This document shows, one piece after another, positions 17,501-33,321 of a stretch of 64,000 nucleotides of DNA. The DNA is from Verrucomicrobiales bacterium (GTDB lineage: Bacteria; Verrucomicrobiota; Verrucomicrobiia; Limisphaerales; UBA11358), in assembly GCA_028712475.1 (NCBI GenBank), contig JAQTQB010000002.1:1-64000 (forward strand), given 5' to 3'. The notes beneath the pieces were generated by a model. The model worked only from the letters and a program-made list of their open reading frames with translations. It was not told where the DNA came from and did no database searches. Each line of letters opens with the position of its first letter. Position 1 is the first letter of the stretch. The position numbers and the translations under genes were made by a program.

Positions 17501-20149
17501 CTACCAGCCCTGCTTGGCACGGTAAAACTGCTGCTTGTTGGTGGTAAAACCAAAATCGTTGAAGGTGAACGGCGGCGCGCCGGTATAGACGTTCACCCAG
17601 TTCGGGGAGATCAAATTGGTGGTGGCCTGAATGATGACCTTGTAATTGGAGCCGGTTGCCAGACCGGAAGGGAACTGAACCCCGCTGACCTTGAAATGAA
17701 AGGATTCGGGCGGGTCTGATGGCTCAAGCAGCGTTATGCTGGCCTGCGCCAAATTTGCGAGATTAACCCAGCGAAGCCGGTTGTTGTTCCAACCATTGAT
17801 ATTCGTTGTAACATCCACCCCGTTGGCGAAAGCCTGCTGGTAGTAGATGACCATGCCCGGACTGATGGCCAGAGCCGTGGCGTTGCTGGTGGTGAAGTTG
17901 AGCGTGGCGGCGAAGTTGGTGAGAACAAGCACATCCACATACATCGCATTGGTAGCTCCCGCGCCGTTGAAAGTGAGCACGCTGTGGGGCGGAACGCTTA
18001 ACGCATTCAAAACCAGCCGGCCCACCGCCACATTATCCACATAGCCGCTGGTGGAAACTCCGCGATCCTCCCCGGCCCAGGTGTTGACAACATTTTTATT
18101 GGTTGAGGCAACCTCCGAAATGCTCGTGCCAAGCAGGTCGCCGGCGGCCGGCTTGATCGGCAGGTTCAATGCCACCAAGCTGGATCCACCCACCGTCCAG
18201 TTGTTGCTGCTGTTCAGGTCGGTCAGCAGATTGGTCGCCCGCAACGTGAGCGACCGGCCCATCGTCAACACCACATTGCTCGCCACCAGACTGTCGGCGG
18301 TGATCGAAATATCGCCAATGGCGGTGATCGAACCACCGGTCAGAACGGCCGTCAGTGATTGCAGGGAGAAATTGCCCAAACCGTTGAGAATGGTTCCGCT
18401 ATTTTTGAAATAACTCGCATAAACCGCCGAGCCTTGATCTGAAAGCAACCCATTGTTGATGAAGGTTTGATAATTGGCCGGCGGCGGGCCGCCAAAGTTG
18501 CCGGCATTGCCCATCGTAATTTTCCCATTATTAGTCAGCCAAAGCAGATTTGGCAACGAACTGGCAAAAAAAACATTGTTGTTTTCCAAATTCAACTCGC
18601 CTTCGGGCGAACCGGCTCCAGTTGCTGGATATCCAACATTGGCCGTCAATGTCAGGCTTCGGGCGTCAATGGAAAGATTGCGGCTGATATTGAACACATC
18701 GCTAATGATCACGTTGGTGCTGTGCAAGGTCAGATCCTGGACTTGCGGCGAAGTGAAAGGAAAAACCTGACTGTCCACGAGCAAAACGCGAAAGTCGTAA
18801 TCTACGCTGGGAACGGCATTGGTATCCGTATAAAGCCAGCGCGTGCTCCAGGCCTGAACCGACCCGACCCAATTCGGAATGACGGACTGCAACAAATTGC
18901 TGACCACAATAGACCCGTTCGTGACGCCCAGATTGATGTCGCTGAAAGGCGAGACAATCGTCGCACCGTCACTGCCATCAAACTGATTGGTGCAGGTGAG
19001 CGACAGATAATTCTGACCGCTGATTGTGGCCAGTGCCAGGTTGAGTTGCCGGCTGGCAGAAATCTGGGTGCGCGCCGGCAGATTGGTGAGTGCGCCGCTC
19101 GGGTTTGAGGCCGTGGGACCGGTCGCCACCGAGGTGGGAACAAACTCCGCGAGCGTGTAGGAGTAAGGATTGGTGATGGATGCGGAGGGGAGCAGAGGCT
19201 GAAAACTTGGCGCAGCCAGACCCGTCAGGGGCAGCGGGACGGTTGATTTGGTGAATTGAAAATTATCAGGGATGCCGTTTACAAGGGTGACATTGGTGGT
19301 GGCTCCCAGAAGATAATCATTCGCCAGATAAAGATAATTGGTCAATGTCTGTCCGGTCGCCGGATTCACATAGGTGCCAATCCACTCGACATTGACAACA
19401 TTAGAATTAACTGGGAAATAAACCTTGTTGGTGACAGTGGGATACGGGTTTCTGATGAATACTGCCCGGACAATCTTATTGGACGGAGTGATCGCATCAG
19501 TCTTAAAATATGACTTGGAATTGATCAAGGTGAAAACATTAGGATCCGAAGACGTGGCGCTGTTCGCCGTCAACATGGCACCAGGATTCCAATTCTGATT
19601 CGTGTTCAGGCCAAAGTTTCCCGCCGTGCCGATAATGCCGAAAGAAGAGTTGTTGCCGCCGCCCTGTGATATCGTAAGGGTGCTGTAAGTCAAATCCACA
19701 TTCTGTCCCGTGAGCAGGATTCCACCATTCAGACCTACATCCATCACGCCGGGACTTGCTATGTTGGTCGCGTTGACGATGATCTGGCCGAACTGGCCGC
19801 CTGAAAGACAAGCGATGGATCCCGGATTGTAAAAACTGACTGCCATCGAGCGCGTGCTGCCGGAGAACGTGTCAAACCGAAACCCGCCAAGTCCAATCAT
19901 TGTGTCATTGTTGGTGTAATTCCGCGTGGACGTCGTCTCGTAAGGAAAAACCGTTCCCGATGAAAAGTAACTGTTGTTGATGAAATTGGTCGCGTCAATG
20001 TTGGGCGCACTGCTGACCACGTCGTTATTGATGTAATATTCCTGCCCCGCCGGCACGGTTTGCGCGAGCAGCAGGCCCGACAGCCCGCAAATCACCGGCC
20101 ATTTCATCAGACGTTTCATCAAGCGACTATAGTGTGTGGTGCCGTTCAT
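17501..20149 (-). CDS. Large exported surface-type protein (third of three)
   Basis: An 882-residue Asn/Thr/Ser-rich protein. I chose the ATG at 20149 because it overlaps the preceding stop by four bases (ATGA), a sign of translational coupling; the signal peptide (MKWPVICGLSGLLLAQTVPA) follows. The body consists of many short beta-strand repeats (for example NNGKITMGNAGNFGG and SITAIGDISITADSLVAS), as in beta-helix adhesins. A C-terminal beta-sandwich-like module ends in NKQQFYRAKQGW, which resembles C-terminal segments I know from other verrucomicrobial exported proteins. It is probably displayed on or released from the cell. Ligand and function are unknown. Confidence 0.75.
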   Translation of the reverse strand: MNGTTHYSRLMKRLMKWPVICGLSGLLLAQTVPAGQEYYINNDVVSSAPNIDATNFINNSYFSSGTVFPYETTSTRNYTNNDTMIGLGGFRFDTFSGSTRSMAVSFYNPGSIACLSGGQFGQIIVNATNIASPGVMDVGLNGGILLTGQNVDLTYSTLTISQGGGNNSSFGIIGTAGNFGLNTNQNWNPGAMLTANSATSSDPNVFTLINSKSYFKTDAITPSNKIVRAVFIRNPYPTVTNKVYFPVNSNVVNVEWIGTYVNPATGQTLTNYLYLANDYLLGATTNVTLVNGIPDNFQFTKSTVPLPLTGLAAPSFQPLLPSASITNPYSYTLAEFVPTSVATGPTASNPSGALTNLPARTQISASRQLNLALATISGQNYLSLTCTNQFDGSDGATIVSPFSDINLGVTNGSIVVSNLLQSVIPNWVGSVQAWSTRWLYTDTNAVPSVDYDFRVLLVDSQVFPFTSPQVQDLTLHSTNVIISDVFNISRNLSIDARSLTLTANVGYPATGAGSPEGELNLENNNVFFASSLPNLLWLTNNGKITMGNAGNFGGPPPANYQTFINNGLLSDQGSAVYASYFKNSGTILNGLGNFSLQSLTAVLTGGSITAIGDISITADSLVASNVVLTMGRSLTLRATNLLTDLNSSNNWTVGGSSLVALNLPIKPAAGDLLGTSISEVASTNKNVVNTWAGEDRGVSTSGYVDNVAVGRLVLNALSVPPHSVLTFNGAGATNAMYVDVLVLTNFAATLNFTTSNATALAISPGMVIYYQQAFANGVDVTTNINGWNNNRLRWVNLANLAQASITLLEPSDPPESFHFKVSGVQFPSGLATGSNYKVIIQATTNLISPNWVNVYTGAPPFTFNDFGFTTNKQQFYRAKQGW

Positions 20150-22362
20150 TGGATGATAAGCGAGTAGTTCCACTGCACCGAGCGCGACACGACATCGGTC
20201 AGTTGCAGGGTGAAGTCAAAGGTGCCGGTCTGGGTTGGCGTGCCGGAAATCGTGCCACCCGAAGACAAGGTCAAGCCCGACGGCAGGCTGCCCGACGACA
20301 GCGACCAGTCGAACGGCGGTGAGAATGCACCGCCGGTGGCGATAAAGGTGGTTGCGGGATAAGCCACCCCATTGGTTCCGACCGGCAGACTGGCCGGAGA
20401 AATCTGCACCAGCACCTGATTGGCCAGATTTTCAATGCTGGTGCCGTTCGGATAGACGACCGGGGCGTTGGTGGAGCCGTCGAACGATCCCCATGTCAGC
20501 ACTGAAAGCCCCCCGGTCAATTGATCCCCGTCCGGAATATTTTCAAAAATAGTCCCGACCTTGTCAAACGTGATCGTGGTGGCCGGATCAATGGTTCCCG
20601 GGCCGGCCAGACCTGGCAGTATGTTGGCCTGGTTAAAATTCACATTGCGGGATAAAACAAAGACACCGTTAGGTAATTCAGCGGGTCCATCGGCCAAATC
20701 CGCCGCGCTAAACAGAAAATCCGGGGTCGTCACCACGCGCTGGAACGTCTGATTAACCAGCTTGCTGTTGCTCACCAACTGCATCGTGTAGGTGTTGGTG
20801 ATGGGCTGGTAGAACTGGCCGAGCAGCGAATCGAAACTCGTCTTCACAAACTTGATTTTGCCGATGCCTTGATACAGGCCGGCGGCATTGGTCGTCCCGC
20901 CGGCGGCCGCCCCGCAAATTATCGGCTCCGCCACGAAAATGTGGTTGGTCGAGCGGGTCACCAGGCTTTGGGAATAGAACAAACCAGCCGAATTGCTGGC
21001 GGAAATAATCAGGTTGGTCTCCACCACCACATTGGTGAACAACGTGCTTAAAATCAGGTTCGGGCCGCAGGCATTGGTGTTAATATAGTAATCACCCGAC
21101 GGCACATTGGTGAGCGTGATGTTCTTGCTGGTGGTGTTCGTGGTCAGCGTGCCGGCGGGGGCGCCGGCAAGCTGCTGCACCTGCACCGTCACCAGCGTGG
21201 CGCTGCTGTTGGGACGGTAGTTGTTGGTGACAACGTTGGCAAAGGTGGTCACATAATTGGTGACCACCGTGTAGGTGTAATTCGTGGTGATGACCAGGGT
21301 TTGCGAGCCGGCCGGCGCGCCAATGAGGTTGGTGAAGTAGGCGACAATGGTCGGCGTGGCCTGCATCGTAAAGTAGTTTGAGGAACTGACAATCACCAGC
21401 CCCGGAAACAGATTGGACATGGTGACCGGGTCATTGGTCCGGGCGGCCAGCGCAAAGGCGGTGTAGTTGGAAGTGTAAAGCGGGAATGGCGCGCCATAGT
21501 TGGTGCCGCCGGACACGGTGGAACTCAACAAAACGCTTCCCGGCGCGGACGATTCAAAATTAATGTTGTTCGTGTTGAGCATATACCGCAGCCCTCCGAT
21601 GTCGTCCCGCGTCAGGCTGATATAATAACCGCCGGTTTGAAGACCCTCGCTGGCCACCGACGGACGGGAATCCGCCAAAGGATCCACTTTCACCGGCGCG
21701 GCCAGCGCTTGAGGATCCGGAACGGAGGCCGGGCAAGCCTCCAAAATGATATAGGTATAAAGCGTCGCGTTGACGTAAGGCGAGTATAGAACCTGATTCA
21801 ACGGGGTGGTTGTGAAATCGAAATTCCTCTGGACCACCAGATATACCTCGTCATCTGGACAGGTGCCACCCGGCAATGTAACCCGGTTGTGCAACGTCCA
21901 GGCATAACGAACCGGATTGTCCAGACCCAGCTGCTCCATCATCGCTGACAAAGTGGTGGACTTCAAATCCAGCAAACCCAAAGCACTCGCCTGATAATTG
22001 ATGGCCTGTGAATACAGCGGAAATTCCGTGAGCGCACTGCTGTAACTGTTCACATTGGTCAGGCTGGCGTTCAGAATGGTGAACGCCTGGTCAATTGCCA
22101 CCACCCCGTTGGAACCGAAGAAATCCAAAAAGTTGGCGTTGGGCGCCCAATACATCACCGGCGTGTTGCGACGGTATTCCTCACCTAGATTTTTGGGTGC
22201 CGTGAGATCGCCGCCAATCCCGTAGCCAATTGTGGTCGCCTGCCAGTTATCGCCGCCGTTGTTGATCGGCCCCCCCAGGGAAAAAGCCCACGCCGCCTGC
22301 TGGCCGGACGCCAGCAGAAGAATCCACGAAAATTTTTTGAGTGATTGCAACATACTGCTCAT
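20146..22362 (-). CDS. Large exported protein with C-terminal putative Ig domain (second of three)
   Basis: A 738-residue exported protein. The ATG at 22362 lies one base after the stop of the upstream gene and opens a signal peptide (KKFSWILLLASGQQAAWAFS). The middle is Asn/Thr-rich beta structure. The last 90 residues form a putative Ig-like domain of the He_PIG/cadherin-like type, with LPSGLTLSSGGTISGTPTQT and GTFDFTLQLTD. Such domains are common in surface adhesins and enzymes. No catalytic motif is seen. The tight spacing with its neighbours suggests one transcript and a joint function. Confidence 0.75.
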   Translation of the reverse strand: MSSMLQSLKKFSWILLLASGQQAAWAFSLGGPINNGGDNWQATTIGYGIGGDLTAPKNLGEEYRRNTPVMYWAPNANFLDFFGSNGVVAIDQAFTILNASLTNVNSYSSALTEFPLYSQAINYQASALGLLDLKSTTLSAMMEQLGLDNPVRYAWTLHNRVTLPGGTCPDDEVYLVVQRNFDFTTTPLNQVLYSPYVNATLYTYIILEACPASVPDPQALAAPVKVDPLADSRPSVASEGLQTGGYYISLTRDDIGGLRYMLNTNNINFESSAPGSVLLSSTVSGGTNYGAPFPLYTSNYTAFALAARTNDPVTMSNLFPGLVIVSSSNYFTMQATPTIVAYFTNLIGAPAGSQTLVITTNYTYTVVTNYVTTFANVVTNNYRPNSSATLVTVQVQQLAGAPAGTLTTNTTSKNITLTNVPSGDYYINTNACGPNLILSTLFTNVVVETNLIISASNSAGLFYSQSLVTRSTNHIFVAEPIICGAAAGGTTNAAGLYQGIGKIKFVKTSFDSLLGQFYQPITNTYTMQLVSNSKLVNQTFQRVVTTPDFLFSAADLADGPAELPNGVFVLSRNVNFNQANILPGLAGPGTIDPATTITFDKVGTIFENIPDGDQLTGGLSVLTWGSFDGSTNAPVVYPNGTSIENLANQVLVQISPASLPVGTNGVAYPATTFIATGGAFSPPFDWSLSSGSLPSGLTLSSGGTISGTPTQTGTFDFTLQLTDVVSRSVQWNYSLIIQ

Positions 22363-22363
22363 T

Positions 22364-24340
22364 TTATTGACGCAACAACAACACGCGGTAATAGCCCGCC
22401 GCACCGCCGCCGACAAAAATTGAATCATTGGTGCCCGCCGCAAACCGGGGCGAACCCAGATTGCTCCACGCCGCCATGTTCGACGCCGCCTGCACCTGAT
22501 ATGTCTGGCCGGGCTGCGTATTCCAGCTCAAGAACATTCCCTGCGACGTATTGGCCAGCGATGTCCGCAGCCATGTGCCCGGGTCAAGCGGGTTGCCCCC
22601 GCTCAAGAAGACCTGCCGCAGGGTCAGACCGCCGGAGGCCAGCGGCGCGTTCACATTGGCCGGCCAGCTGGCGATGGTATTGCCGTAATATAGTTCCAGC
22701 CATTCCACCGGGACGTCATAATAATTGCCACCGCCCCAGGTCGTGCCGCTGGTGGCCGGAGAAATCGGCGAGATTGCCCCGCCCGTCGTCACATAATCCA
22801 CCTGAAACGAGTGCGTGCTGCTGGCGGCCAGACCGTTTGTCACAGTCATTGTCCAGATGTTGCCCGCTGTCACACCCGCCGGCACGCCGGAGCCGTCCAC
22901 ATAGACTTCATAATTGGAAACGGAAATTCCCAGCAACGGGGGCCAGGAAACCTCCAGTTGCGGCTGATAAACCCCGTCGGCGTCCAGCGTGAACGGCGCA
23001 TAGACGAACGGCGCGGCCATGGGCTGCAGCAGCGCCGCGACATTGAGATAACGCTGCGCAAACAGATCAAAACTGTTCGGCGAACCGGCATAGCCCGTCC
23101 AGACCGCCAGAAACTGGCCCGCGCCATCCGAGGTCAACGCCGGGTGCATTTGCTGGCTGACCGTGGTGGTGTTGACCTGAAATTCACCGCCCACGGGCGA
23201 ACCGTTGTTATGCACAAACTGTCCGAACAAGCCTTCGCGGGAACCGTCCTGGCCCAGACTCGTCCATGCAATCATGTAATCGGCGGCAATGACACTGATG
23301 CGCGGCGCGTATTGGTCGCCTATAAGATGCGAATTGACACGCAAGGTAGTGCCGCCGGTGCCCGAACTGGAAAATGTCCGCGCATAGATGTCAAAACTGT
23401 TGGTCTGATTCAGCATGTCACGCGCGCCCCACGTCACCATGAAACTGCCGTCGGACACCGACGCCACGGCTGGGTTGGCGCAGGGATTGGAATCTGTGTT
23501 CACGAGAAATTCACTGCCTGCAGGCACGCCATTGCTGGCGTAAAGCCGCGCATAGATGTCCACGCTCGGAACCACCAAGGCGCTTGCAGTGGAATACGTT
23601 GAATTTGCCCCCAGATTCGGAGCCACCACGCGTTGCTGTTCGGAAACCCAGCCCACAACGAATCCGCCGTTTTTCAAGGCGGCAACCGCCGGCGTGCGCT
23701 GGTTGTAATTGGTGAATTGATTGATTCGAAACTGGTTGCTGACGGTCGTGCCAGTGCGTGAAAGGATTTTGCAATAAACATCCTGCAAGCTGTTTGAGCC
23801 GGCCTGATTGAAACTGGCCCACACCACCACGACGTTGCTGTTGTTCAGCGTCGCCACGGCGGGGTTGATCTGAAAATTGTTGGTGAAGGTGCTGACCACC
23901 AGGTCGGTGGTCGTCAAAAAGGTGTTGGTCGGGGTGAGAAAACGCGCGAAAATGTGCTGGTAGCCTTTTTTGCCGCCCTGCCAGACAAACACGGCCCCGC
24001 CATTTTTCAACAGCGCGACGCGGGGGTTTTCCTGATCGTTGGTTCCCTGCTGGTTCACTCGAAACGCGCCCAAGGTGCCGGACAGCGTGCTGTCCAGACG
24101 CCGGGCGCTCACGCCCCAGCCGTTGCCGTCCGTGCTGTTGTCCTGCCAGACCACAAATCCGCCGGCGGGAGTCACCGCCGCATCCGGAAAAACCTGGTCG
24201 CCTGGCAAAGAACCCACCACGGCATATTCGGTCCCATTCTTGGAATAATAATTGGTCTGCGCCATGACGGCGGGAGGAATCATGAGGAACAATCCCCAGC
24301 AAATACAAATGGCGGCCCTGCGGGCGAACAACAAAAACAT
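22364..24340 (-). CDS. Large exported protein with repeated beta-propeller-like units (first of three)
   Basis: With the start at 24340 this is 658 residues, beginning MFLLFARRAAICICWGLFLM as a signal peptide; an alternative ATG at 24460 would add 40 residues before it. The body repeats a unit around AVAALKNGGFVVGWVSEQQ and AVASVSDGSFMVTWGARD, i.e. xVxLxDGGFVVxW followed by a polar loop, about every 50-60 residues, as in propeller-type domains. It continues into a fibronectin-III-like region and a C-terminal segment (TYQVQAASNMAAWSNLG, ending YYRVLLLRQ) typical of verrucomicrobial exported proteins. Function unknown. Confidence 0.75.
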   Translation of the reverse strand: MFLLFARRAAICICWGLFLMIPPAVMAQTNYYSKNGTEYAVVGSLPGDQVFPDAAVTPAGGFVVWQDNSTDGNGWGVSARRLDSTLSGTLGAFRVNQQGTNDQENPRVALLKNGGAVFVWQGGKKGYQHIFARFLTPTNTFLTTTDLVVSTFTNNFQINPAVATLNNSNVVVVWASFNQAGSNSLQDVYCKILSRTGTTVSNQFRINQFTNYNQRTPAVAALKNGGFVVGWVSEQQRVVAPNLGANSTYSTASALVVPSVDIYARLYASNGVPAGSEFLVNTDSNPCANPAVASVSDGSFMVTWGARDMLNQTNSFDIYARTFSSSGTGGTTLRVNSHLIGDQYAPRISVIAADYMIAWTSLGQDGSREGLFGQFVHNNGSPVGGEFQVNTTTVSQQMHPALTSDGAGQFLAVWTGYAGSPNSFDLFAQRYLNVAALLQPMAAPFVYAPFTLDADGVYQPQLEVSWPPLLGISVSNYEVYVDGSGVPAGVTAGNIWTMTVTNGLAASSTHSFQVDYVTTGGAISPISPATSGTTWGGGNYYDVPVEWLELYYGNTIASWPANVNAPLASGGLTLRQVFLSGGNPLDPGTWLRTSLANTSQGMFLSWNTQPGQTYQVQAASNMAAWSNLGSPRFAAGTNDSIFVGGGAAGYYRVLLLRQ

Positions 24341-24475
24341 AACAGGTTTGGCAGACTCTAAACGCACCGCTGCGTTTTGTCCAAAAATTCCCATGACGGA
24401 ACAGACGCGACCCGCGCATCCGCCCATCGGCACATTTTGAATCCAGCTTGACAAATTCATCTTTCTTGCAAATTT

Positions 24476-25360
24476 CTAAATCAACACCGTCTGTCTCATG
24501 CTTGGCGATGTTCCCAGGTCTTCAAGCATTCCCTTGAATCCCCACCGCCTGAACAGTTCGCCCAATTGTCCGGCATCCGCCGGTTTTTCAACCAGGTTTT
24601 CCGGCGAAAAATCGCACGGCAAATCATCCTGCAACCGCACCAAATTCAAATTCCGCCGCACGGCTTCCGCCGAAGCGCGCAATGAAGCCCGCAGTTTTTC
24701 CTGCTTCACTTCATCCAGACGCCCAAACAACCCGTCCACCGAACCAAACCGGTTCAACATGCCGGCGGCGGTCTTTGATCCGACACCCGGCACGCCAGGA
24801 ATGTTGTCCACGCTGTCACCCATCAGGGCCAGCCAGTCCACAATCTGCGACGGCCCAACGCCGGTCTTGGCCCGCACCTGCTCGTCCGTCCAGACGGTTT
24901 CGCTTTTGTCGTTCGGATTTAACAACCCGACTTGCGGCGAGACCAGCTGCATAAAATCTTTATCCGAACTGGCAATGACCACGGCCATGCCCGCGTCCGA
25001 CGCGTGCCGCGACAGGCAGGCGATGTAATCATCGGCCTCCACGCCTTCGCGCCGGAATGACTCAACCCGCGCCGCTTTCAAATAACTGACTATCTCATCC
25101 AGTTGCGGCCTCAAATCGTCCGGCATTTCCGGACGCTGCGCCTTGTATCCTGGCAGAGCCGCCATGCGATGCGCACTCAATCCGCCGTCCCACACCACGA
25201 TCAAATGCGTCGGCTTGATGGTCGCACGCATCTTGGCCAGCATTTTGACGAATCCATAAATTGCATTCGTCGGCTGGCCCGACGGCGAACGCAACTCGCG
25301 GATCGCATAAAACGCGCGATAGGCGTAAGCATGGCCGTCAACAATCAGCAACCGGTTCAC
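24476..25360 (-). CDS. Stand-alone 5'-3' exonuclease (PolA N-terminal / flap endonuclease type)
   Basis: A 294-residue enzyme with a GTG start (GTGAACCGGTTGCTG). Residues 1-170 are the PIN-like catalytic domain: LLIVDGHAYAYRAFYAIREL, VVWDGG, EADDYIACL, and SSDKDFMQLV with the metal-binding acidic residues. Residues 170-260 are the helix-hairpin-helix DNA-binding region (GDSVDNIPGVPGVGSKTA). It matches the 5'-nuclease domain of DNA polymerase I but ends before any 3'-5' exonuclease or polymerase domain. Separate forms of this nuclease remove RNA primers or flaps. It lies between the secretin genes and the exported-protein genes on the same strand. Confidence 0.88.
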   Translation of the reverse strand: MNRLLIVDGHAYAYRAFYAIRELRSPSGQPTNAIYGFVKMLAKMRATIKPTHLIVVWDGGLSAHRMAALPGYKAQRPEMPDDLRPQLDEIVSYLKAARVESFRREGVEADDYIACLSRHASDAGMAVVIASSDKDFMQLVSPQVGLLNPNDKSETVWTDEQVRAKTGVGPSQIVDWLALMGDSVDNIPGVPGVGSKTAAGMLNRFGSVDGLFGRLDEVKQEKLRASLRASAEAVRRNLNLVRLQDDLPCDFSPENLVEKPADAGQLGELFRRWGFKGMLEDLGTSPSMRQTVLI

Positions 25361-25412: not shown

Positions 25413-26078
25413 TTATTGCTTGACGTCCGCCGCTGCCGCCGCTGCCGGGCCGGGCTGGAACGTCTGCCCTGGCACCACCGGTTGCGTCGGAATGGCTGTC
25501 TGCGTAAACGGCAATTCATCGTCTGAATGCACCCGGTTGCCGGCCGGATCCACAATGGTGGCCGTCACAAAAATCATCAGGTTCTTTTTTGACACTTTTT
25601 TGGCCGAACTCTGAAACAAAATGCCAACCCCGGGTAAATCGCCAAGAACAGGAACTTTATCTTTGGTGCTTGCTGTAACGGCAGAAATCAACCCGCCAAT
25701 CACGATGGTCTGATTGTCCCAGATGTTCACCGTGGTGACCACTTGACGGACGGCGAACATAGGCAAACTGGTCGGCAATTGCACCACATTAAGCCCGCCC
25801 GTCACGTTGGGAACGGGCGGTGGATCCTGATAGCCCTGAAATTCGGTCAGTGACGGAATCAACGTCAAGTTGATAGTATAACCATCGGACAAAACGTAGG
25901 GGACAACATCCAGCACCGGACCGGTCTCAACCTGCTGGGTGACGGGGGTGATGGCGGAGACTCCGGGATTATTATTAACAACCTGCGCCTGGGCCACCTC
26001 GACCGCAGCAAAAGCGCCGCAAAGCAGCAACGCCGAAAACGTCAGTTTGGAAACCGTATTTGCCTTGAGTGATTTCAT
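25413..26078 (-). CDS. Secretin C-terminal half, separately exported polypeptide
   Basis: A 221-residue protein with its own signal peptide (LTFSALLLCGAFAAVEVAQA, cleaved near residue 31). The mature part is the second half of a bacterial secretin barrel: LDVVPYVLSDGYTINLTLIP (about 55-74), TVNIWDNQTIVIGGLI (about 117-132), and VPVLGDLPGVGILFQSSAKK followed by LMIFVTATIVDP. These are the conserved PulD/PilQ C-terminal strands. The upstream gene carries the first half and ends just before this part. The two genes are 23 bases apart with separate starts. The arrangement implies a two-chain secretin. The C-terminus is Ala/Pro-rich. Confidence 0.88.
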   Translation of the reverse strand: MKSLKANTVSKLTFSALLLCGAFAAVEVAQAQVVNNNPGVSAITPVTQQVETGPVLDVVPYVLSDGYTINLTLIPSLTEFQGYQDPPPVPNVTGGLNVVQLPTSLPMFAVRQVVTTVNIWDNQTIVIGGLISAVTASTKDKVPVLGDLPGVGILFQSSAKKVSKKNLMIFVTATIVDPAGNRVHSDDELPFTQTAIPTQPVVPGQTFQPGPAAAAAADVKQ

Positions 26079-26101: not shown

Positions 26102-28402
26102 TTATTGGGTTGTGCCTGTGCCGGTCGTGGTGGCTGCCGTTCCTTGCTGGAAATCGTAGCCGGTGACGATGAATTCAAGCCGGGTTGCACGCATTTGTGT
26201 CTGTCGTCCGCTGGTGGTCACCACTTCCGGTTCCGCGAGAGCTTCTGCCCCGCTGCGCTGTTCCAAGGCTTTTATAACGACCCGGAAATTGGGATCCGTC
26301 ATGATGCCCGTCACCGTGGCGAGCGCCGGTGCGCCGAGGGGATTGCGGAGGCCGCCTGTCACCAGTTGATCGCCAGCTGACCCTGGAATCTGGCTGGCCG
26401 TCGTGTTCCCCGGAAACGTGCCCAACGGATTGGCCGCCGAAGTTGGAACATTCAGCGACGGCGCGCTGCCACCATTGGCAATGACCTTCCCATTCACAAA
26501 ATTTCCAAGATACCAGTCAAAGCCCAGCGCCGTATTGTCGTCCTGCAAGATTTCAATGAAACGGGATTTGATGTGAATCTGCGGAGCCACACGGTTCAAA
26601 ACTTCAATGGCATTTTCGATGGTGTCCAAATCCTGCGACGTGGCGCGGACAAACAGTTCACCGAGACGATCATTGAAAAAGAGGCTTTTACCAAGCCCGC
26701 CTGGCGTTGACGGATCCAAATTAACCCCCAGTGTGGAAAAGAAAAGCCGGGCTTGCGTGCTGATATCCACAGTCTGGCCAACGGTCGTCACATAATTGAC
26801 TCCGCCGTCGTTGTTGCCACCGCCAGCAGTGCCGCCAGCTCCACCTGCGCCAGTAGAGCGGCCACCGCCACCGCCACCACCACCACCACCACCACTGCCC
26901 GTCGAACGCAGGCCAGATGAACCGGGCGCCACGTTGATTATCGGCACAACCGCGCCGTTGTTGTTATTGCCATTGTTGCCGCCACCGCCACCGCCACCGC
27001 CGCCACCGCCGCCGCCGCTGGTGCCGCCACCAGTGCTGCCGCCACCAGAACTGCTGTTGGCCGAACCAAAGCTCTGCGCGCTCACGGCCTGCAAGCCCTG
27101 CTCAAATGTGTTCGGGTCAACTCTGAAATGACGGCTGTAAAGCGTCGGGGTTTCCGCTCCCTTGGCGGAAAAGACGATCGCATAATCTTGAACGCTGTAT
27201 TTTATCGGATGATCGGCCACCTGGACGATGGCATCCAACACGTCCGCCAGACGCACATCGCTCAAACCCGGGTTCATTTTGATGATCACCGTGTTCAGGT
27301 CAACCGCTTCAGCAGCAGTGGCGGCGGGAGCCACCGGCAAACCTGTGGCGGGATCAACTGTCTGGGCGGCGGGAAAGCCGCGCTCGGCAAAACCACCGCC
27401 GCCGGCAGCCGGGGCGAGCGTTGCAACGGAGTTGTCCGGATTGGGGTTGATCAAAAAATTGATGCCCTTTTTTTCGGGATCCCGGATTTTGGCCTGCTCG
27501 CTCAAGTTGCGGACGACCTCGCTCAACGGCAGCCCGTCATATAATGCGTCCATGCGGATGCGGTCCAGCTTGCTGACAATCGCCTGCCGTCCGGCACCGG
27601 TGTAGATCAAATTTGTCATCGCGTAGGCGTTCGGCGTCGGCAAACTTGTGTTCGGCCCGAGTCTTTCCCAGGCCTTCTCCACTTGCACAATGCGTTCACC
27701 GCTGGCCACGGTGTGCATCCGTTCTTCGCGCGCATAACGGGCCTGCTTGGTCAGGTTCAAATAGTAATAGGCACCGGTGTTGTTCGGGTCGAGTTTCAAG
27801 GCGGCATTAAATTTTGCATCCGCTTCTTCCAGTTTGCCCATCTCGTAAAGCAGCTTGCCGTCCTGCACCAGGGTGCCCGCATCGGTCTTCTCGTTCATGA
27901 TGGCTGGAACCTTTTCGAGCGTCGGGAGAGAGGGGGTTTTGCCGCGCATGGCGGCCATCATCTGGTCGTTCTGTTTTTTGAAGGCGATGGCTGCGGAATT
28001 GTTCGGATCCACCTTCAGCACGCGGCTGACTTCGGTGTTGGCTGCGTTCAAGTCACCGTTGCCCTGCGCCTGGCGGGCGAGCTGGAGCCGGGTTGAATCA
28101 AGGCCGGAAATGGTCTGCTCCTTTTCACTGTCAACGCCGGATCCGACTTGCTGCACCAGCGTATAAGCATCCTCGTAATATTTTGCGGCCGCCGTCAGAT
28201 CCCCGCGCGCGGCGGCACTGCTGGCTTCCGCAAGTTTTTGGCGCAGCACGATGGTGTTGGCCTGCCGGACCACACCTTCATTGACCGCCACATCGGTGGC
28301 GCTGTTTTGCGCCGACAGGCTGGCAACGGAGGCCAGCAGGAAAATGAAGCCGAGCGAGAGGGAAGCTGCTTTTGTCATGGTTGGTTTCAAGTTGATCTTC
28401 AA
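26102..28402 (-). CDS. Secretin N-terminal part with TPR region (Amuc_1098-like)
   Basis: A 766-residue protein with a signal peptide (AASLSLGFIFLLASVASLSA). Residues 35-235 are TPR-like helices (DLTAAAKYYEDAYTLVQQ, LEEADAKFNAALKLDPNNTG). Secretin periplasmic N domains follow (DVRLADVLDAIVQVADHPIK). Two poly-Gly tracts near 461-473 and 503-514 act as linkers. The first half of the secretin domain runs from about 590 (APQIHIKSRFIEI) to ALAEPEVVTTSGRQTQMRAT, after which the chain ends in a Thr-rich tail. A complete secretin would continue with the segment encoded by the next gene. Secretins form outer-membrane channels for type II secretion or type IV pili. Confidence 0.88.
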   Translation of the reverse strand: MKINLKPTMTKAASLSLGFIFLLASVASLSAQNSATDVAVNEGVVRQANTIVLRQKLAEASSAAARGDLTAAAKYYEDAYTLVQQVGSGVDSEKEQTISGLDSTRLQLARQAQGNGDLNAANTEVSRVLKVDPNNSAAIAFKKQNDQMMAAMRGKTPSLPTLEKVPAIMNEKTDAGTLVQDGKLLYEMGKLEEADAKFNAALKLDPNNTGAYYYLNLTKQARYAREERMHTVASGERIVQVEKAWERLGPNTSLPTPNAYAMTNLIYTGAGRQAIVSKLDRIRMDALYDGLPLSEVVRNLSEQAKIRDPEKKGINFLINPNPDNSVATLAPAAGGGGFAERGFPAAQTVDPATGLPVAPAATAAEAVDLNTVIIKMNPGLSDVRLADVLDAIVQVADHPIKYSVQDYAIVFSAKGAETPTLYSRHFRVDPNTFEQGLQAVSAQSFGSANSSSGGGSTGGGTSGGGGGGGGGGGGGNNGNNNNGAVVPIINVAPGSSGLRSTGSGGGGGGGGGGGRSTGAGGAGGTAGGGNNDGGVNYVTTVGQTVDISTQARLFFSTLGVNLDPSTPGGLGKSLFFNDRLGELFVRATSQDLDTIENAIEVLNRVAPQIHIKSRFIEILQDDNTALGFDWYLGNFVNGKVIANGGSAPSLNVPTSAANPLGTFPGNTTASQIPGSAGDQLVTGGLRNPLGAPALATVTGIMTDPNFRVVIKALEQRSGAEALAEPEVVTTSGRQTQMRATRLEFIVTGYDFQQGTAATTTGTGTTQ

Positions 28403-28431: not shown

Positions 28432-29226
28432 TCATGGCGTGTATCGCAAAGTTGTGTGTTTCTGGTTTGATTGGGCTGACAATATCACTTCGTCTGGATC
28501 AATTGCAACGACAATGTAATCTTCGCCACCGAAAGAAATGGATGAATTCTCACGCCGTCCGATAAAAGTTTTCTTGTCCAGATCATACTTCAAATCCGCC
28601 GCGTAGGCATCCGCACGTTTGAAGGGTTTTTGTTTGGACACCGACACCATCTCGCCGCTGTCGGCCAGTTTCAAAATCAACTCGCTTGGATTTTCGGGGG
28701 CGCCTTTGACCTCAACCAGCGTGAAGGCATCCTTCTTCCTGTCATCCATCGAGGCAAAACGCTTTTGTTTTTGGCGCAGCGCCGGAGTCGCCGCCGCCTG
28801 ACGTTCTATGCCGATGACATAGCGCGCCCCAAGTTCGTTGGTCGTCACCTGATCCAGCGTCACCACCAGATAGAGCGGCGTGATCTTGGTGACGACGGCC
28901 GCTCCGGCACCAGTTTCATTTCCTGTCTTGATTTTAATCGGATTGCCATCGATCCCTTTTTTCCAATCCATCGGGTTGAACAGCTTGTTGGTCGTGAAAA
29001 AATCAAAGTTAGCCCGCGCAAGCAGCCGCTCCGAGGCGCTTTTCTGCCGCGTCAAATCCAGCGCCGGCAGCGGCGGGACTTTGGGGGTTGTATATTCATC
29101 CCCCAATCTTTTTATTTCCTCCTGATCTCTGGAAATCATAAACGGCAAAACCACGAGCGCGCCTACCAAGCCCGCCAGCACGGCGCTCAATATGATTTTC
29201 TCGTAATGTTTTTTGACAAATTCCAT
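28432..29226 (-). CDS. Amuc_1099-like pilus-associated inner-membrane protein
   Basis: A 264-residue protein with one N-terminal membrane segment (IILSAVLAGLVGALVVLPFM) after a basic cytoplasmic start. A periplasmic domain of beta-rich character follows (KITPLYLVVTLDQVTTNELG, YIVVAIDPDEVILS). Its position between the Amuc_1100-like gene and the secretin gene is the position of Amuc_1099 in the Akkermansia muciniphila type IV pilus-like locus. The topology suggests a PilP-like bridge between inner-membrane components and the secretin; that role is inference. The start is 4 bases after the previous stop. Confidence 0.7.
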   Translation of the reverse strand: MEFVKKHYEKIILSAVLAGLVGALVVLPFMISRDQEEIKRLGDEYTTPKVPPLPALDLTRQKSASERLLARANFDFFTTNKLFNPMDWKKGIDGNPIKIKTGNETGAGAAVVTKITPLYLVVTLDQVTTNELGARYVIGIERQAAATPALRQKQKRFASMDDRKKDAFTLVEVKGAPENPSELILKLADSGEMVSVSKQKPFKRADAYAADLKYDLDKKTFIGRRENSSISFGGEDYIVVAIDPDEVILSAQSNQKHTTLRYTP

Positions 29227-29230
29227 GAAC

Positions 29231-30169
29231 TTATTTTTTGGGGAACGGTTTCACAATCACCACTTCAATCGTGACGCGCAAAAGCTGTTCATTCAAGAAA
29301 GTCTGCAGCCCGCCTTTTCCGGCCCCGGGCGCGGGCGCAACCGGCGGCGTATAACCTCCGCCAGGATAACCACCCCCATAGCGTCCAAACGCGCCGGATG
29401 CGTCAGGCACGCCAATCGAAGCCGTCGCGCCAGCAGGGGAAACATTTAGGCCCTTGACAATAAATCCGTTCGGCGCGGCGGCAAAACCGGTCAGCACCGC
29501 CGCCAGTTCAGGAGTGAAGGACCGGAAGGTGACCGCATAAGGCGTCAATACGGCAAGGTCGTTGGTGACGGCGGGATCAGCAATGTAGTCAGACTGCGAA
29601 CCGGCAGCATCGTCGTCTGACACCCGGAGACGCTGGATGCTGTCGAACGAGTTGACGCGTGCCGCAAAAAGAATTTCCGAAATGGTCTTCACTTCTCCGA
29701 GCTGCACCGCCAGCGGCGCGAGGCTGCCGGGCGCGAACCGGACAATCGAGCGTTGTGCTTCAAACGAAAAACCATACTTCGGCGGCAACTGGACGCTTGC
29801 GGTTTCCGCCTCACGTTGCAACTGGTCAATCGTCCGGCGCAGGGCGGCGGCAAAAGCCTCGCTGGTCACTTCCGGCAAATTGGGAATGGCCGCAATCGGC
29901 TTGAAATAATTTCCCGTCTGGTCGGTCCAAGCGCGGATTTCACGCTCCTGATCCTTGGCGGTCTGGGTATTGTTTATCTTCTTGCCGTCGCCGGGGGCTG
30001 GTTTCTGACTGTTAAGCGTCTGGAGATTGCCGTAGATCTCATTCAGTTTTTGAAACGCCACCGAGTTGTGGTTCCAGCCCTTAAAATTATAAAAGGCCGC
30101 CGCACCCAGCAGCAGCAAAGCGATGGCGCCGCCAATTGCAAAAAAAAGATTTCGTTTGATCCAGGCCAT
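29231..30169 (-). CDS. Amuc_1100 family pilus-associated membrane protein
   Basis: A 312-residue protein with one membrane helix (LFFAIGGAIALLLLGAAAFY) and a long periplasmic part that starts with a coiled helical region. The layout matches Amuc_1100 of Akkermansia: helical stalk, alpha/beta domain (LPPKYGFSFEAQR), second alpha/beta domain (LTPYAVTFRSFTPELAAVLT), a Gly/Pro/Ala-rich stretch (about 265-290), and a last strand (LLRVTIEVVIVKPF). The gene order (PilM, this, Amuc_1099-like, secretin) is the same, which strengthens the call. It probably takes the PilO place in a pilus-like machine. The stop of the pilM gene lies 1 base upstream of this start codon. Confidence 0.82.
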   Translation of the reverse strand: MAWIKRNLFFAIGGAIALLLLGAAAFYNFKGWNHNSVAFQKLNEIYGNLQTLNSQKPAPGDGKKINNTQTAKDQEREIRAWTDQTGNYFKPIAAIPNLPEVTSEAFAAALRRTIDQLQREAETASVQLPPKYGFSFEAQRSIVRFAPGSLAPLAVQLGEVKTISEILFAARVNSFDSIQRLRVSDDDAAGSQSDYIADPAVTNDLAVLTPYAVTFRSFTPELAAVLTGFAAAPNGFIVKGLNVSPAGATASIGVPDASGAFGRYGGGYPGGGYTPPVAPAPGAGKGGLQTFLNEQLLRVTIEVVIVKPFPKK

Positions 30170-30170
30170 A

Positions 30171-32009
30171 TTACAGTTTCAACGGATTTTGCAGCATGAC
30201 CGTGATGCCGAACGTGAATGTGCCGCTGGCATTGTCCGGCGTGATCTGACCGGTGAGCTGCGTTGTCTTCGGATCAAAGATCGGACACGCCTTTAACTGG
30301 GTTTCCACCGCATAGGCAATCTCGCTGTTCGCCGAGGGATCAATGCTGGTTAAATCCACGGCGCGACAAATCAAATTGATGGGCGTCCCTTGATTGACGC
30401 CCGCCGCAGCCGCATCCGGATTGGGAGCTTCCGGGGCGGGCCTCCCCTGATTATATCTTCCGGCAAATTCAGGATTATTATACACAGGCATCGGGTTTGC
30501 CATCATGCCACCGCTGGCGCTCTGCAAATCCGGCAGCGTCGTCATCTGCTCGATCCAGATGCCGACCTCGACATTCGACTTTTGTGCGGACAGTTTTTTC
30601 TTGACGTCATCCTCGGAGCGGATGAGCACGCCACGCAGTTGCGCCAGGACATCCCCCCAATAATACCGCTGTTCCAACCAGGTGGTGATCTGGTCGGCTT
30701 CCTTTTGGGCCGCCTGCAGCCTCGAATAAACTTTTTTGAACGCATCATACTTTAACTGGATCGCCTGAACCTTCGGCTCCAGCTCCTTGATTTCCTCTTC
30801 TTTTGATTGCGCCAGCTTTTCAAACAGGAATCCGACCGCAAACGCCACCAGCACGAGACTGAAAACCGTGGCAATGAAATAGGGCTTCTTCTGGTTGAAA
30901 GCCTGCCAGCGCAAGGTGCTGTCGGGCATCAGATTCATTTCCACCGGGCAATGCGCCAGATTCCGCAGGCCGAGACCGACGACTTCGCCAAGCGAATGGG
31001 CCACCCGCGCGAGCTCTTCCAGATTGACCGCCGGATCAATCTGGATGTTGCGGAGCGGATTGAAATATTCGACGGGGATGTTCAGCTTCTCGGCAAAAAA
31101 CTGCGCCGTGTAGGGCATTATGGACGCGCCGCCGGACAGGAACAACCGCTGCGGCGCCGCCCCGCCCTGCTGGCCGCGATAAAACTGCAAGGTCGAGTTG
31201 ACCTGGATGTGCAGCTTGGTCATGAACTGTCGCGCGATCTTGGAGATGGCCGCCTGGTGCGGGTTTTCCGGCTCTTCATACGCGCCGCCCAGGCTCACGA
31301 ATCCTTCGGCGATCTTGATTTTTTCCGCCTCGTCAAATTTCAGCTTCGCCTCGTTCGCAAAATCCTGCGTGATGCCATTCGCCCCAAGGTTGATGCTGCG
31401 CGAAAAAACCTTCCCCTTCTCGAAGAACAGCAGGTTGCTGGTCTTGGCCCCGATGTCCAGCAGCATGGCGCATTCTTCGAGGTCGCCATAATTATACCGG
31501 AAGGCGTTGCACAGGGCGGCGGGCGAGGCATCGCACAAATTCAGCCGCAGCTTCGCCTGTGCGGCCACGCGGAACAGTCCCTCAACCACGTCGGACTTGA
31601 CGGCGACCAACAATACTTCCAGTTCGCCGCCGGGCGCGGAACCCAGAATCTGGTAATCCCAGACCACCTCCGCCAGCGGGAACGGCACGTTCTGCTGCGC
31701 CTCGTATTGGATGATCTGCGTCACCTTGGTCGCGTCCACCGGCGGCAGCTTGACGAACTTGGAAAAAACATGGAAGCCCGGCGCGCAGACGTTGACGTTT
31801 TTACCCTTGATGCCTTTTTCAGCGAGCGTTTCCTGAAGGGCTTTGAGAATGACCGCTTCGCGCGTGGCATCCACCGAGCCTTCCAGCCCGAGCGGCTTGA
31901 TGACAAAACTTTTGAGGGACAATCCGCCGGCCTCGTTCGTCTCGAACTCCGCGAGCTTGAGGCTGCCCGCCCCAAAATCAACCGTCAAAAATGATTTTAC
32001 ATTCAGCAT
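30171..32009 (-). CDS. pilM: PilM-like ATPase fused to a PilN-like membrane segment (Amuc_1101-like)
   Basis: A 612-residue protein. Residues 1-345 are a PilM/FtsA-type actin-like domain: SFLTVDFGAGSLKLAEFE, IQYEAQQNVPFPLAEVVWDY, MLLDIGAKTSNLLFFEKGKV and RLFLSGGASIMPYTAQFFA. A single membrane helix follows near 375-395 (FIATVFSLVLVAFAVGFLFE), then a coiled coil (EEEIKELEPKVQAIQLKYD) and a periplasmic domain, the layout of PilN. In Proteobacteria PilM and PilN are separate proteins joined by the PilN tail, so this is a natural fusion. It would be the inner-membrane base of the pilus-like machine. It is the first gene of the minus-strand operon. Confidence 0.88.
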   Translation of the reverse strand: MLNVKSFLTVDFGAGSLKLAEFETNEAGGLSLKSFVIKPLGLEGSVDATREAVILKALQETLAEKGIKGKNVNVCAPGFHVFSKFVKLPPVDATKVTQIIQYEAQQNVPFPLAEVVWDYQILGSAPGGELEVLLVAVKSDVVEGLFRVAAQAKLRLNLCDASPAALCNAFRYNYGDLEECAMLLDIGAKTSNLLFFEKGKVFSRSINLGANGITQDFANEAKLKFDEAEKIKIAEGFVSLGGAYEEPENPHQAAISKIARQFMTKLHIQVNSTLQFYRGQQGGAAPQRLFLSGGASIMPYTAQFFAEKLNIPVEYFNPLRNIQIDPAVNLEELARVAHSLGEVVGLGLRNLAHCPVEMNLMPDSTLRWQAFNQKKPYFIATVFSLVLVAFAVGFLFEKLAQSKEEEIKELEPKVQAIQLKYDAFKKVYSRLQAAQKEADQITTWLEQRYYWGDVLAQLRGVLIRSEDDVKKKLSAQKSNVEVGIWIEQMTTLPDLQSASGGMMANPMPVYNNPEFAGRYNQGRPAPEAPNPDAAAAGVNQGTPINLICRAVDLTSIDPSANSEIAYAVETQLKACPIFDPKTTQLTGQITPDNASGTFTFGITVMLQNPLKL

Positions 32010-32193: not shown

Positions 32194-32505
32194 GTGCCGA
32201 TTCAACCATCAGCCAACGCACCGGCTTCAAACCGCCGCCGCCTGAAAATTTTTTATTCAGGCCGCGTGCAGGGCGTCGGGTTTCGTTATGCCGCGAAAGC
32301 CCTCGCCGCCGGTTTTGAAATCAGCGGCACCATCCGCAATCTGCCCGACGGCCGCGTCGAACTCATCGCCGAGGGCACGCACGAGGAACTTGATGCCTTC
32401 CGCACCGCCATCCGCAATGAAGGTCTTGCTGGCTTTATCCGCGACGAGCAGGTAACTTGGGCCGACGCGCAAAATGAATTTCGCGGCTTTGAAATTTCCC
32501 GTTGA
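32194..32505 (+). CDS. acyP: Acylphosphatase
   Basis: A 103-residue protein if it begins at the GTG at 32194; no ATG is available. The domain is complete: FYSGRVQGVGFRYAAKALAA holds the phosphate loop and catalytic Arg, and GTIRNLPDGRVELIAEG holds the catalytic Asn. Acylphosphatases hydrolyse carboxyl-phosphate bonds. The protein extends into FRGFEISR at the end, as usual. The following phosphoesterase gene starts 5 bases after the stop on the same strand. The first 15-20 residues are variable, so the start is uncertain. Confidence 0.85.
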   Translation: MPIQPSANAPASNRRRLKIFYSGRVQGVGFRYAAKALAAGFEISGTIRNLPDGRVELIAEGTHEELDAFRTAIRNEGLAGFIRDEQVTWADAQNEFRGFEISR

Positions 32506-32510
32506 CCGAC

Positions 32511-33233
32511 ATGAGATACGCCATCATCGCTGACATCCACGGAAACTTGGAGGCATTCCAGACCGTTTTGGACGACATCAAAACCCAGAACGTCCAGCAG
32601 GTCGTCTGCCTCGGCGATGTCGTCGGCTACAATGCCAACCCCAAGGAATGTCTCCAGATCGTCCGCGCCATGAACATTCCCGTCGTCAAGGGGAACCACG
32701 ACGAATACTGCTCCACCGACGACCATCTCGAAGGCTTTAATCCCCACGCCGCCGAAGCCGTCCTCTGGACCCGCAACCAGCTCACCGCCGACGACCGCCA
32801 ATGGCTGCGCGATCTGAAGTATTCCCGCATGGTCGCCAACTTCACCATCGTCCACGCCACGCTCGACGCGCCGCAGCGCTGGGGCTACGTCTTCGACAAG
32901 CTCGCCGCCGCCGCCAGTTTTCCGTATCAGAACACGCAGCTCTGTTTCTTCGGCCACACCCATGTGCCCGTCGCCTTCATGCGCGACACCGCCGTGCGCG
33001 GCGGAACGTATTCCAAATTCAAAGTGGATCCGGCCAAAAAATATTTCGTCAACGTAGGCGCCGTCGGCCAGCCCCGCGACAACAATCCCAGGGCCGGTTA
33101 CGTCGTCTATGACGCGGAAGCCGGCACGATTGAACTCCGCCGCCTCGACTACGACATCGCCACCACGCAGCAAAAGATCCGCGACGCCGGCCTGCCCGAA
33201 CGGCTGGCCGAACGCCTTGGGTTTGGCCGGTGA
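32511..33233 (+). CDS. Metallophosphoesterase (YfcE / diadenosine tetraphosphatase-like)
   Basis: A 240-residue cytoplasmic enzyme. Motifs of the calcineurin-like phosphoesterase fold appear in order: ADIHGNLEAF (residues 7-16), CLGDVVGYNANP, VKGNHDEY and FFGHTHVPVAF. These supply the two-metal site. The C-terminal part with VNVGAVGQPRDNNPRAGYVV is typical of the prokaryotic group that hydrolyses phosphodiesters or dinucleoside polyphosphates. The substrate cannot be read from sequence. I used the ATG at 32511 rather than a TTG nine bases earlier. It follows acyP closely. Confidence 0.88.
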   Translation: MRYAIIADIHGNLEAFQTVLDDIKTQNVQQVVCLGDVVGYNANPKECLQIVRAMNIPVVKGNHDEYCSTDDHLEGFNPHAAEAVLWTRNQLTADDRQWLRDLKYSRMVANFTIVHATLDAPQRWGYVFDKLAAAASFPYQNTQLCFFGHTHVPVAFMRDTAVRGGTYSKFKVDPAKKYFVNVGAVGQPRDNNPRAGYVVYDAEAGTIELRRLDYDIATTQQKIRDAGLPERLAERLGFGR

Positions 33234-33321
33234 ATGAAGAATTAAAATGTTCAATGAAGAATTTCAATTTGCGCGGAGCGCGCCACTTTTGTTTCTTCAT
33301 TCCTCATTCTAAATTCTTCAT

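Follow-up and report, generated by a model that had tools for sequence, protein, structure and literature searches.

The gene trio C-B-A encodes three large proteins of predicted export, and we propose with moderate confidence that it is an accessory set specific to the order Limisphaerales, working with an Amuc_1098-related PilM-N-O-secretin machine as a surface or tip complex. The trio was found in a window of 64,000 nucleotides (the whole stretch of DNA that was analysed) from a Limisphaerales genome (Verrucomicrobia subdivision 3) of 3.4 Mb that is 98% complete. It lies in a minus-strand run made up of pilM, the PilN- and PilO-position genes, a two-piece secretin, an exonuclease, C, B, A and coaE:

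30171-32009, minus strand: pilM (PF11104, PilM_2, E 1e-35), which opens the run
29231-30169, minus strand: PilN-position gene, named from its position in the run; Pfam gave no match
28432-29226, minus strand: PilO-position gene, also named by operon place; no Pfam match
26102-28402, minus strand: N-terminal half of the secretin, with a signal peptide, TPR and the first part of the secretin region
25413-26078, minus strand: C-terminal half of the secretin (PF00263, E 3.5e-27), with a signal peptide of its own; Amuc_1098-related
24476-25360, minus strand: stand-alone 5'-3' exonuclease of the PolA N-terminal type (PF02739, E 4e-50; PF01367, E 7e-29)
22364-24340, minus strand: gene C as first read, an open frame of 658 aa
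22364-24460, minus strand: gene C as revised, with the probable start at 24460 instead of 24340
20146-22362, minus strand: gene B, an open frame of 738 aa
17501-20149, minus strand: gene A, an open frame of 882 aa
16909-17493, minus strand: coaE (dephospho-CoA kinase), 7 nt past A and the other flank of the trio
16793-16762, minus strand: strong terminator-like hairpin of 13 pairs followed by a T-rich stretch, after coaE; a consensus match only

The N-termini of A, B and C are all signal-peptide-like, as called with a simple hydrophobicity rule and not with SignalP. Their combined Asn and Thr content (C 15.8%, B 19.4%, A 21.3%) exceeds that of the exonuclease (6.2%) and PilM (9.6%). The first-pass annotation had described three large, Asn/Thr-rich genes with signal peptides, separated by 1 base and a 4-base overlap, and all of this stands; the measured spacing is +1 nt from C to B and -4 nt from B to A. 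Short gaps are kept across relatives, so the coupling is not a product of chance: the median is 8 nt between C and B (74 relatives, 70 of them with at most 20 nt) and 5 nt between B and A (73 relatives, 58 with at most 20 nt). The same annotation had placed the trio directly downstream of secretin genes. The shared strand and the secretin identity were borne out, but the exonuclease gene lies between, and what had been taken for separate genes turned out to encode a single secretin in two halves.

Gene C probably begins at 24460 and not at 24340, because an in-frame extension starting MNLxSWIN is conserved across most of the genus. Among genus relatives this extension begins 2-14 nt past the exonuclease stop, and in the window the revised start shrinks the gap between exonuclease and C from 135 nt to 15 nt. 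In most of the genus this added stretch (24341-24460; MNLxSWIN...FRQxRRxGL) stands ahead of C's signal peptide, and it resembles an extended signal peptide region.

A strong terminator or promoter between 24340 and 25413 had been named beforehand as evidence against the association of the trio with the pilus genes; a scan of the minus strand there gave zero terminator-like sites and one promoter-like match, at 24383, which scores 9/12 in a scan that returned 12 such sites against 7.9 expected. The hairpin at 16793-16762 is the probable end of the transcription unit. Upstream of pilM, plus-strand frames read as a metallophosphoesterase and, judged from sequence alone, an acylphosphatase. The minus-strand frame at 32286-33254 was considered as a further operon gene and rejected: it is antisense to the metallophosphoesterase gene and contains stops in relatives. 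Though conserved in relatives, this frame is not itself a gene. Elsewhere in the genome, T2SSE-family ATPases were found at several places and, with the secretin and PilM, make up a type IV pilus gene set. Two further secretins are also present, one of them adjoining a T2SSE ATPase.

The secretin itself is related to the pilus secretin PilQ of Akkermansia muciniphila, Amuc_1098, which is represented by the NCBIfam model NF042912 (PMC4960237). This model aligns to both halves in the window, at positions 18-385 for the N-terminal half (208.6 bits) and 638-804 for the C-terminal half (119.9 bits), and the two systems share the secretin domain, a TPR-bearing N-terminus (TPR E 1e-6) and a pilM-led operon. 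However, the window halves, as well as the fused relatives in the order, score below the 750-bit cut-off of NF042912, and the window secretin is thus a relative of Amuc_1098 and not a member of its family. It also differs in being split in two and followed by C-B-A, which the sampled outgroups in the class lack.

Of 79 loci scored, 30 encode the secretin by two adjacent genes; the window is one of them, and most of its genus shows this form. The break falls inside the secretin domain, with the N-terminal piece spanning positions 311-441 of the GspD model and the C-terminal piece starting from 478. By the simple rule, all 30 C-terminal pieces carry a signal peptide. Most of the order has the secretin in one piece, as do some members of the window's genus; the tree requires nine or more changes between the split and fused states, and two other families have split it separately. 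The only split secretin that we found in the literature is that of the rhizobial-type T3SS, divided into RhcC1 and RhcC2 (PMC3574062). It is likewise encoded as two polypeptides, whereas the window secretin is of pilus type, has adjacent genes, is broken inside the secretin domain, carries a signal peptide on both halves and belongs to a type found fused and split within one genus. The split secretin may be a more unusual feature of the locus than the trio.

C was detected in 218 of 245 genomes sampled over the order and in 108 of 115 genera, nearly always as a single full-length copy per genome. Since nearly all of these relatives are metagenome assemblies, an apparent absence may be an assembly gap. 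Relatives of C in the same genus are full-length in nearly all genomes and share 54-78% identity. For gene order, 89 loci were fetched: 35 belong to the genus, 40 represent 25 further families, and another 14 were selected for a weak or short match to C, so that 54 loci lie beyond the genus and 33 families are covered overall. The order pilM-N-O-secretin-(exonuclease)-C-B-A on one strand was seen in 89 of 89 loci as far as the contigs reach. Not one of them, including the 14 weak or short cases, had C-B-A unlinked from the pilus genes, and gene order in relatives, which had been suggested as a check of the association, therefore upholds it. Among the 40 other-family loci, the exonuclease occupies its slot in 20 and is missing from the other 20, where C-B-A directly follows the secretin. 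Conservation is highest for PilM (0.56), followed by C (0.44), B (0.40), PilN (0.36) and PilO (0.35). One genome (G050) has two complete copies of the pilus run with C-B-A, possibly the result of a mixed bin.

Profile searches outside the order found no full-length or core matches to C, B or A. There the profiles picked up only two modules, the one that ends C and A and the Ig-like one of B, together with a single partial match to the propeller (G369). Sixteen loci with a related secretin were compared from the other orders of this class: in 10 the secretin belongs to a pilM-led run that continues with the exonuclease, coaE or both, and in none is it followed by C-B-A. Since the outgroup runs have one or both of these genes without C-B-A, and the profiles match within the order, the simplest account is that the trio entered an older run, between its (exonuclease) and coaE, at the root of the order. 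The exonuclease and coaE belong to the secretin run in several orders of the class. At three outgroup loci (L295, L296 and L297), unrelated large signal-peptide proteins of 3142, 1358 and 1467 aa lie immediately past the related secretin.

Four genomes in the order lack exactly C-B-A. At these loci (L208-L211) pilMNO and a one-piece secretin are present and the exonuclease and coaE, the latter flanking the trio in relatives, are adjacent; no B core or A body was found elsewhere in the four genomes. Three of the four form a clade deep within the genus of the window in a FastTree phylogeny of concatenated PilM, PilN, PilO and the C-terminal part of the secretin, so the loss is secondary. Because the pilus genes remain when precisely these three genes are absent, the trio was lost as one unit, is dispensable and constitutes an accessory set, not a core part of the machine. 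A fifth candidate, G044, was discarded: its contig stops after the exonuclease, and a fragment of B lies on another contig.

The domain make-up of the proteins was examined by sequence searches and structure models. C consists of a signal peptide, seven repeats of ~55 residues, an FN3 domain, a TSP3-like segment and a C-terminal shared domain. The repeats centre on W65, W120, W174, W231, W304, W359 and W414, and the mean similarity score among segments at these sites is 10.1 compared with -26.5 (sd 2.1) for random placements, of which 0 of 300 reach the observed value. They presumably fold as a seven-bladed beta-propeller. The FN3 domain matches that of chitinase A1 (E 3e-5, PDB sequence search), and a TSP3-like segment of the form D-x-D-x-DG follows it in most relatives. 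In the short C proteins of some families, the match covers the propeller and then just the C-terminal part.

A comprises a signal peptide and a large predicted beta-helix, to which relatives add a DSDGDG calcium-type motif and the C-terminal domain of C. Its AlphaFold2 model (pLDDT 86.6) aligned best by VIA to secreted adhesins: the secretion domain of HMW1 (2odl; Z 14.8, rmsd 3.8, 274 aligned residues), EtpA (Z 14.8, 425 residues) and HxuA (Z 13.6), with tailspikes and polysaccharide lyases ranking below HMW1 and EtpA. The right-handed beta-helix passenger fold was recovered at Z 14.8 to both 2odl and 8vbb. Foldseek, run with the same model, returned nothing significant (best E 0.37). On the VIA alignments and the strands of the model, A is predicted to be a beta-helix; such structural likeness tells of fold and not of function.

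B has a signal peptide, a conserved N-terminal core of no recognised fold and a C-terminal Ig/cadherin-like domain. In the structure model (pLDDT 86.4), residues 643-738 align to SraP (4m03; VIA Z 10.7, rmsd 2.4, 88 aligned residues). This domain takes up all matches in the fold search with B and is missing from many relatives. An RDD[VI]GGL motif near a C-helix made a degenerate matrixin a tempting reading of B. It was not adopted: HExxH is absent from all 111 B sequences, and hhalign of the N-terminal core against matrixins of the order gave P 0.03, no better than controls. Matrixin-type proteases with an intact HExGH do occur in the order (L249-L269), and several end in the C-terminal domain of A and C.

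That domain, which takes up the final ~120 residues of C (22364-22730), closes both A and C and also matches the tails of numerous large frames throughout the class. Of 17 matched cases inspected closely, 16 have it ending 1-6 residues before the stop, and it looks like a candidate sorting or anchoring tail. Proteins carrying it also exist in the empty-site genomes, so C-B-A would be a user of the tail route and not the route itself. As a TSP3-plus-beta domain (also in L230-L247), it closes large exported proteins and is absent as a whole from Pfam and NCBIfam.

Searches of A, B, C and their distant relatives against Pfam and NCBIfam gave just weak matches to Golvesin_C, TSP3_bac and PDIAV_lipo, while the PDB sequence search yielded nothing for B and the FN3 domain alone for C. 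There was no whole-protein match for any of the three in Pfam, NCBIfam or PDB sequences, none in a phage collection, and no paper on this Limisphaerales locus was found. Within these searches, the earlier statement that the combination is not a described system holds.

Several known systems are similar in part. PilY1 offers the closest functional parallel: this propeller protein is exported by Sec, and beneath its secretin it plugs the pilus and primes it (PMC7541494). C is likewise large, predicted to be Sec-exported, a putative propeller protein and encoded with pilus genes. On the other hand, its propeller is N-terminal and of another repeat type, and A and B take the place of minor pilins as its partners. 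At E 0.1 none of the three proteins matched the PilY1 domain PF05567, and for this reason C may be said to work like PilY1 but not to be PilY1; in a PilY1 search across genomes of the order the controls stayed silent. The two-partner secretion adhesins HMW1, EtpA and HxuA are closest to the predicted beta-helix of A. However, A has no match to the N-terminal TPS domain in Pfam, no TpsB gene is present among the run genes examined (pilMNO, secretin, exonuclease, C-B-A and coaE), and the A family has the calcium motif and the C-terminal domain instead. Large surface proteins of alphaproteobacteria contain propeller-like repeats that match C at residues ~35-480 (28-31% identity, E to 8e-32), but there the repeats are parts of other proteins.

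How the trio relates to the pilus can be read in several ways. Operon membership alone is no proof of shared function, because the housekeeping-type exonuclease and coaE occur in the run class-wide. The same two genes lend something to the view that C, B and A act together in a job unrelated to the pilus and merely hitch-hike in its operon. We regard this as quite improbable given the linkage to pilMNO-secretin in every one of the 89 loci, a constancy that the neighbouring exonuclease, missing from half of the other-family slots, does not share and that argues for a pilus accessory. Strict linkage to the secretin, together with conservation of C and B at or above that of PilN and PilO, would also suit a periplasmic or outer-membrane helper of the pilotin or TsaP kind that stabilises or gates the channel. 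Such a helper is distinctly improbable: secretins do without the trio in the four empty-site genomes and in all other sampled orders, and a beta-helix with calcium-type motifs would be better placed on the cell exterior.

It is unlikely, though less so, that A, B and C are dedicated cargo, released through the PilMNO-secretin as an extracellular binding or digestive complex and not as pilus parts. All three have signal peptides, the class-wide C-terminal domain of A and C also ends large proteins of which some have matrixin domains predicted to be active, and at 3 of the 15 outgroup loci that could be read, unrelated large signal-peptide proteins come straight after the related secretin (the giant downstream frame of L286 was left out of this count owing to masked bases). 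Yet cargo usually varies, whereas the trio is kept across Limisphaerales as one set, in one gene order and one copy, and other proteins with the C-terminal domain persist without C-B-A, so that route does not depend on the trio. A fixed accessory pilus assembly is favoured over variable cargo by the strict linkage, the single copy, the intermediate conservation and the loss as a block.

The accessory pilus reading also draws on the secreted adhesins HMW1 and EtpA as the best structural matches of the A model, on the ending of A and C in a domain that, by sequence, sits at extreme C-termini class-wide, and, by analogy, on the PilY1 precedent. Against it stand the intact pilus operons without the trio in four genomes, the two other secretins that could export the trio (one by a T2SSE ATPase), and the class outgroups, which run a related secretin without C-B-A. 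A more specific form, that C-B-A is an undescribed, PilY1-independent and order-defining pilus tip or surface complex in which a beta-helix protein, a propeller protein and a third partner are made 1:1:1 and ride the pilus through the secretin, is put forward only tentatively.

We infer one complex of C-B-A together with its location, export route and adhesive role; the first-pass suggestions of production in a fixed ratio and of a part as substrates, tip or surface partners are of the same standing. As an accessory of the pilus, the operon would make A, B and C in step with the secretin gate. The three proteins would cross the inner membrane via Sec, and either this secretin or the general type II system would take them across the outer membrane, leaving them at the tip of the pilus or on the surface of the cell near the gate. 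In that position, the beta-helix of A and the propeller and FN3 domains of C could build a long, calcium-stabilised adhesive scaffold, which B may join or cap.

Members of Limisphaerales are common in both soils and fresh water, and to judge from titles they are known almost solely from metagenome assemblies. A trio found beside a pilus gate in some nine tenths of the order is a clear target for the study of attachment, feeding and movement in these bacteria. The locus extends the Amuc_1098 pilus family known from Akkermansia, and four natural deletions of the trio, together with naturally split secretins, are on hand for comparison.
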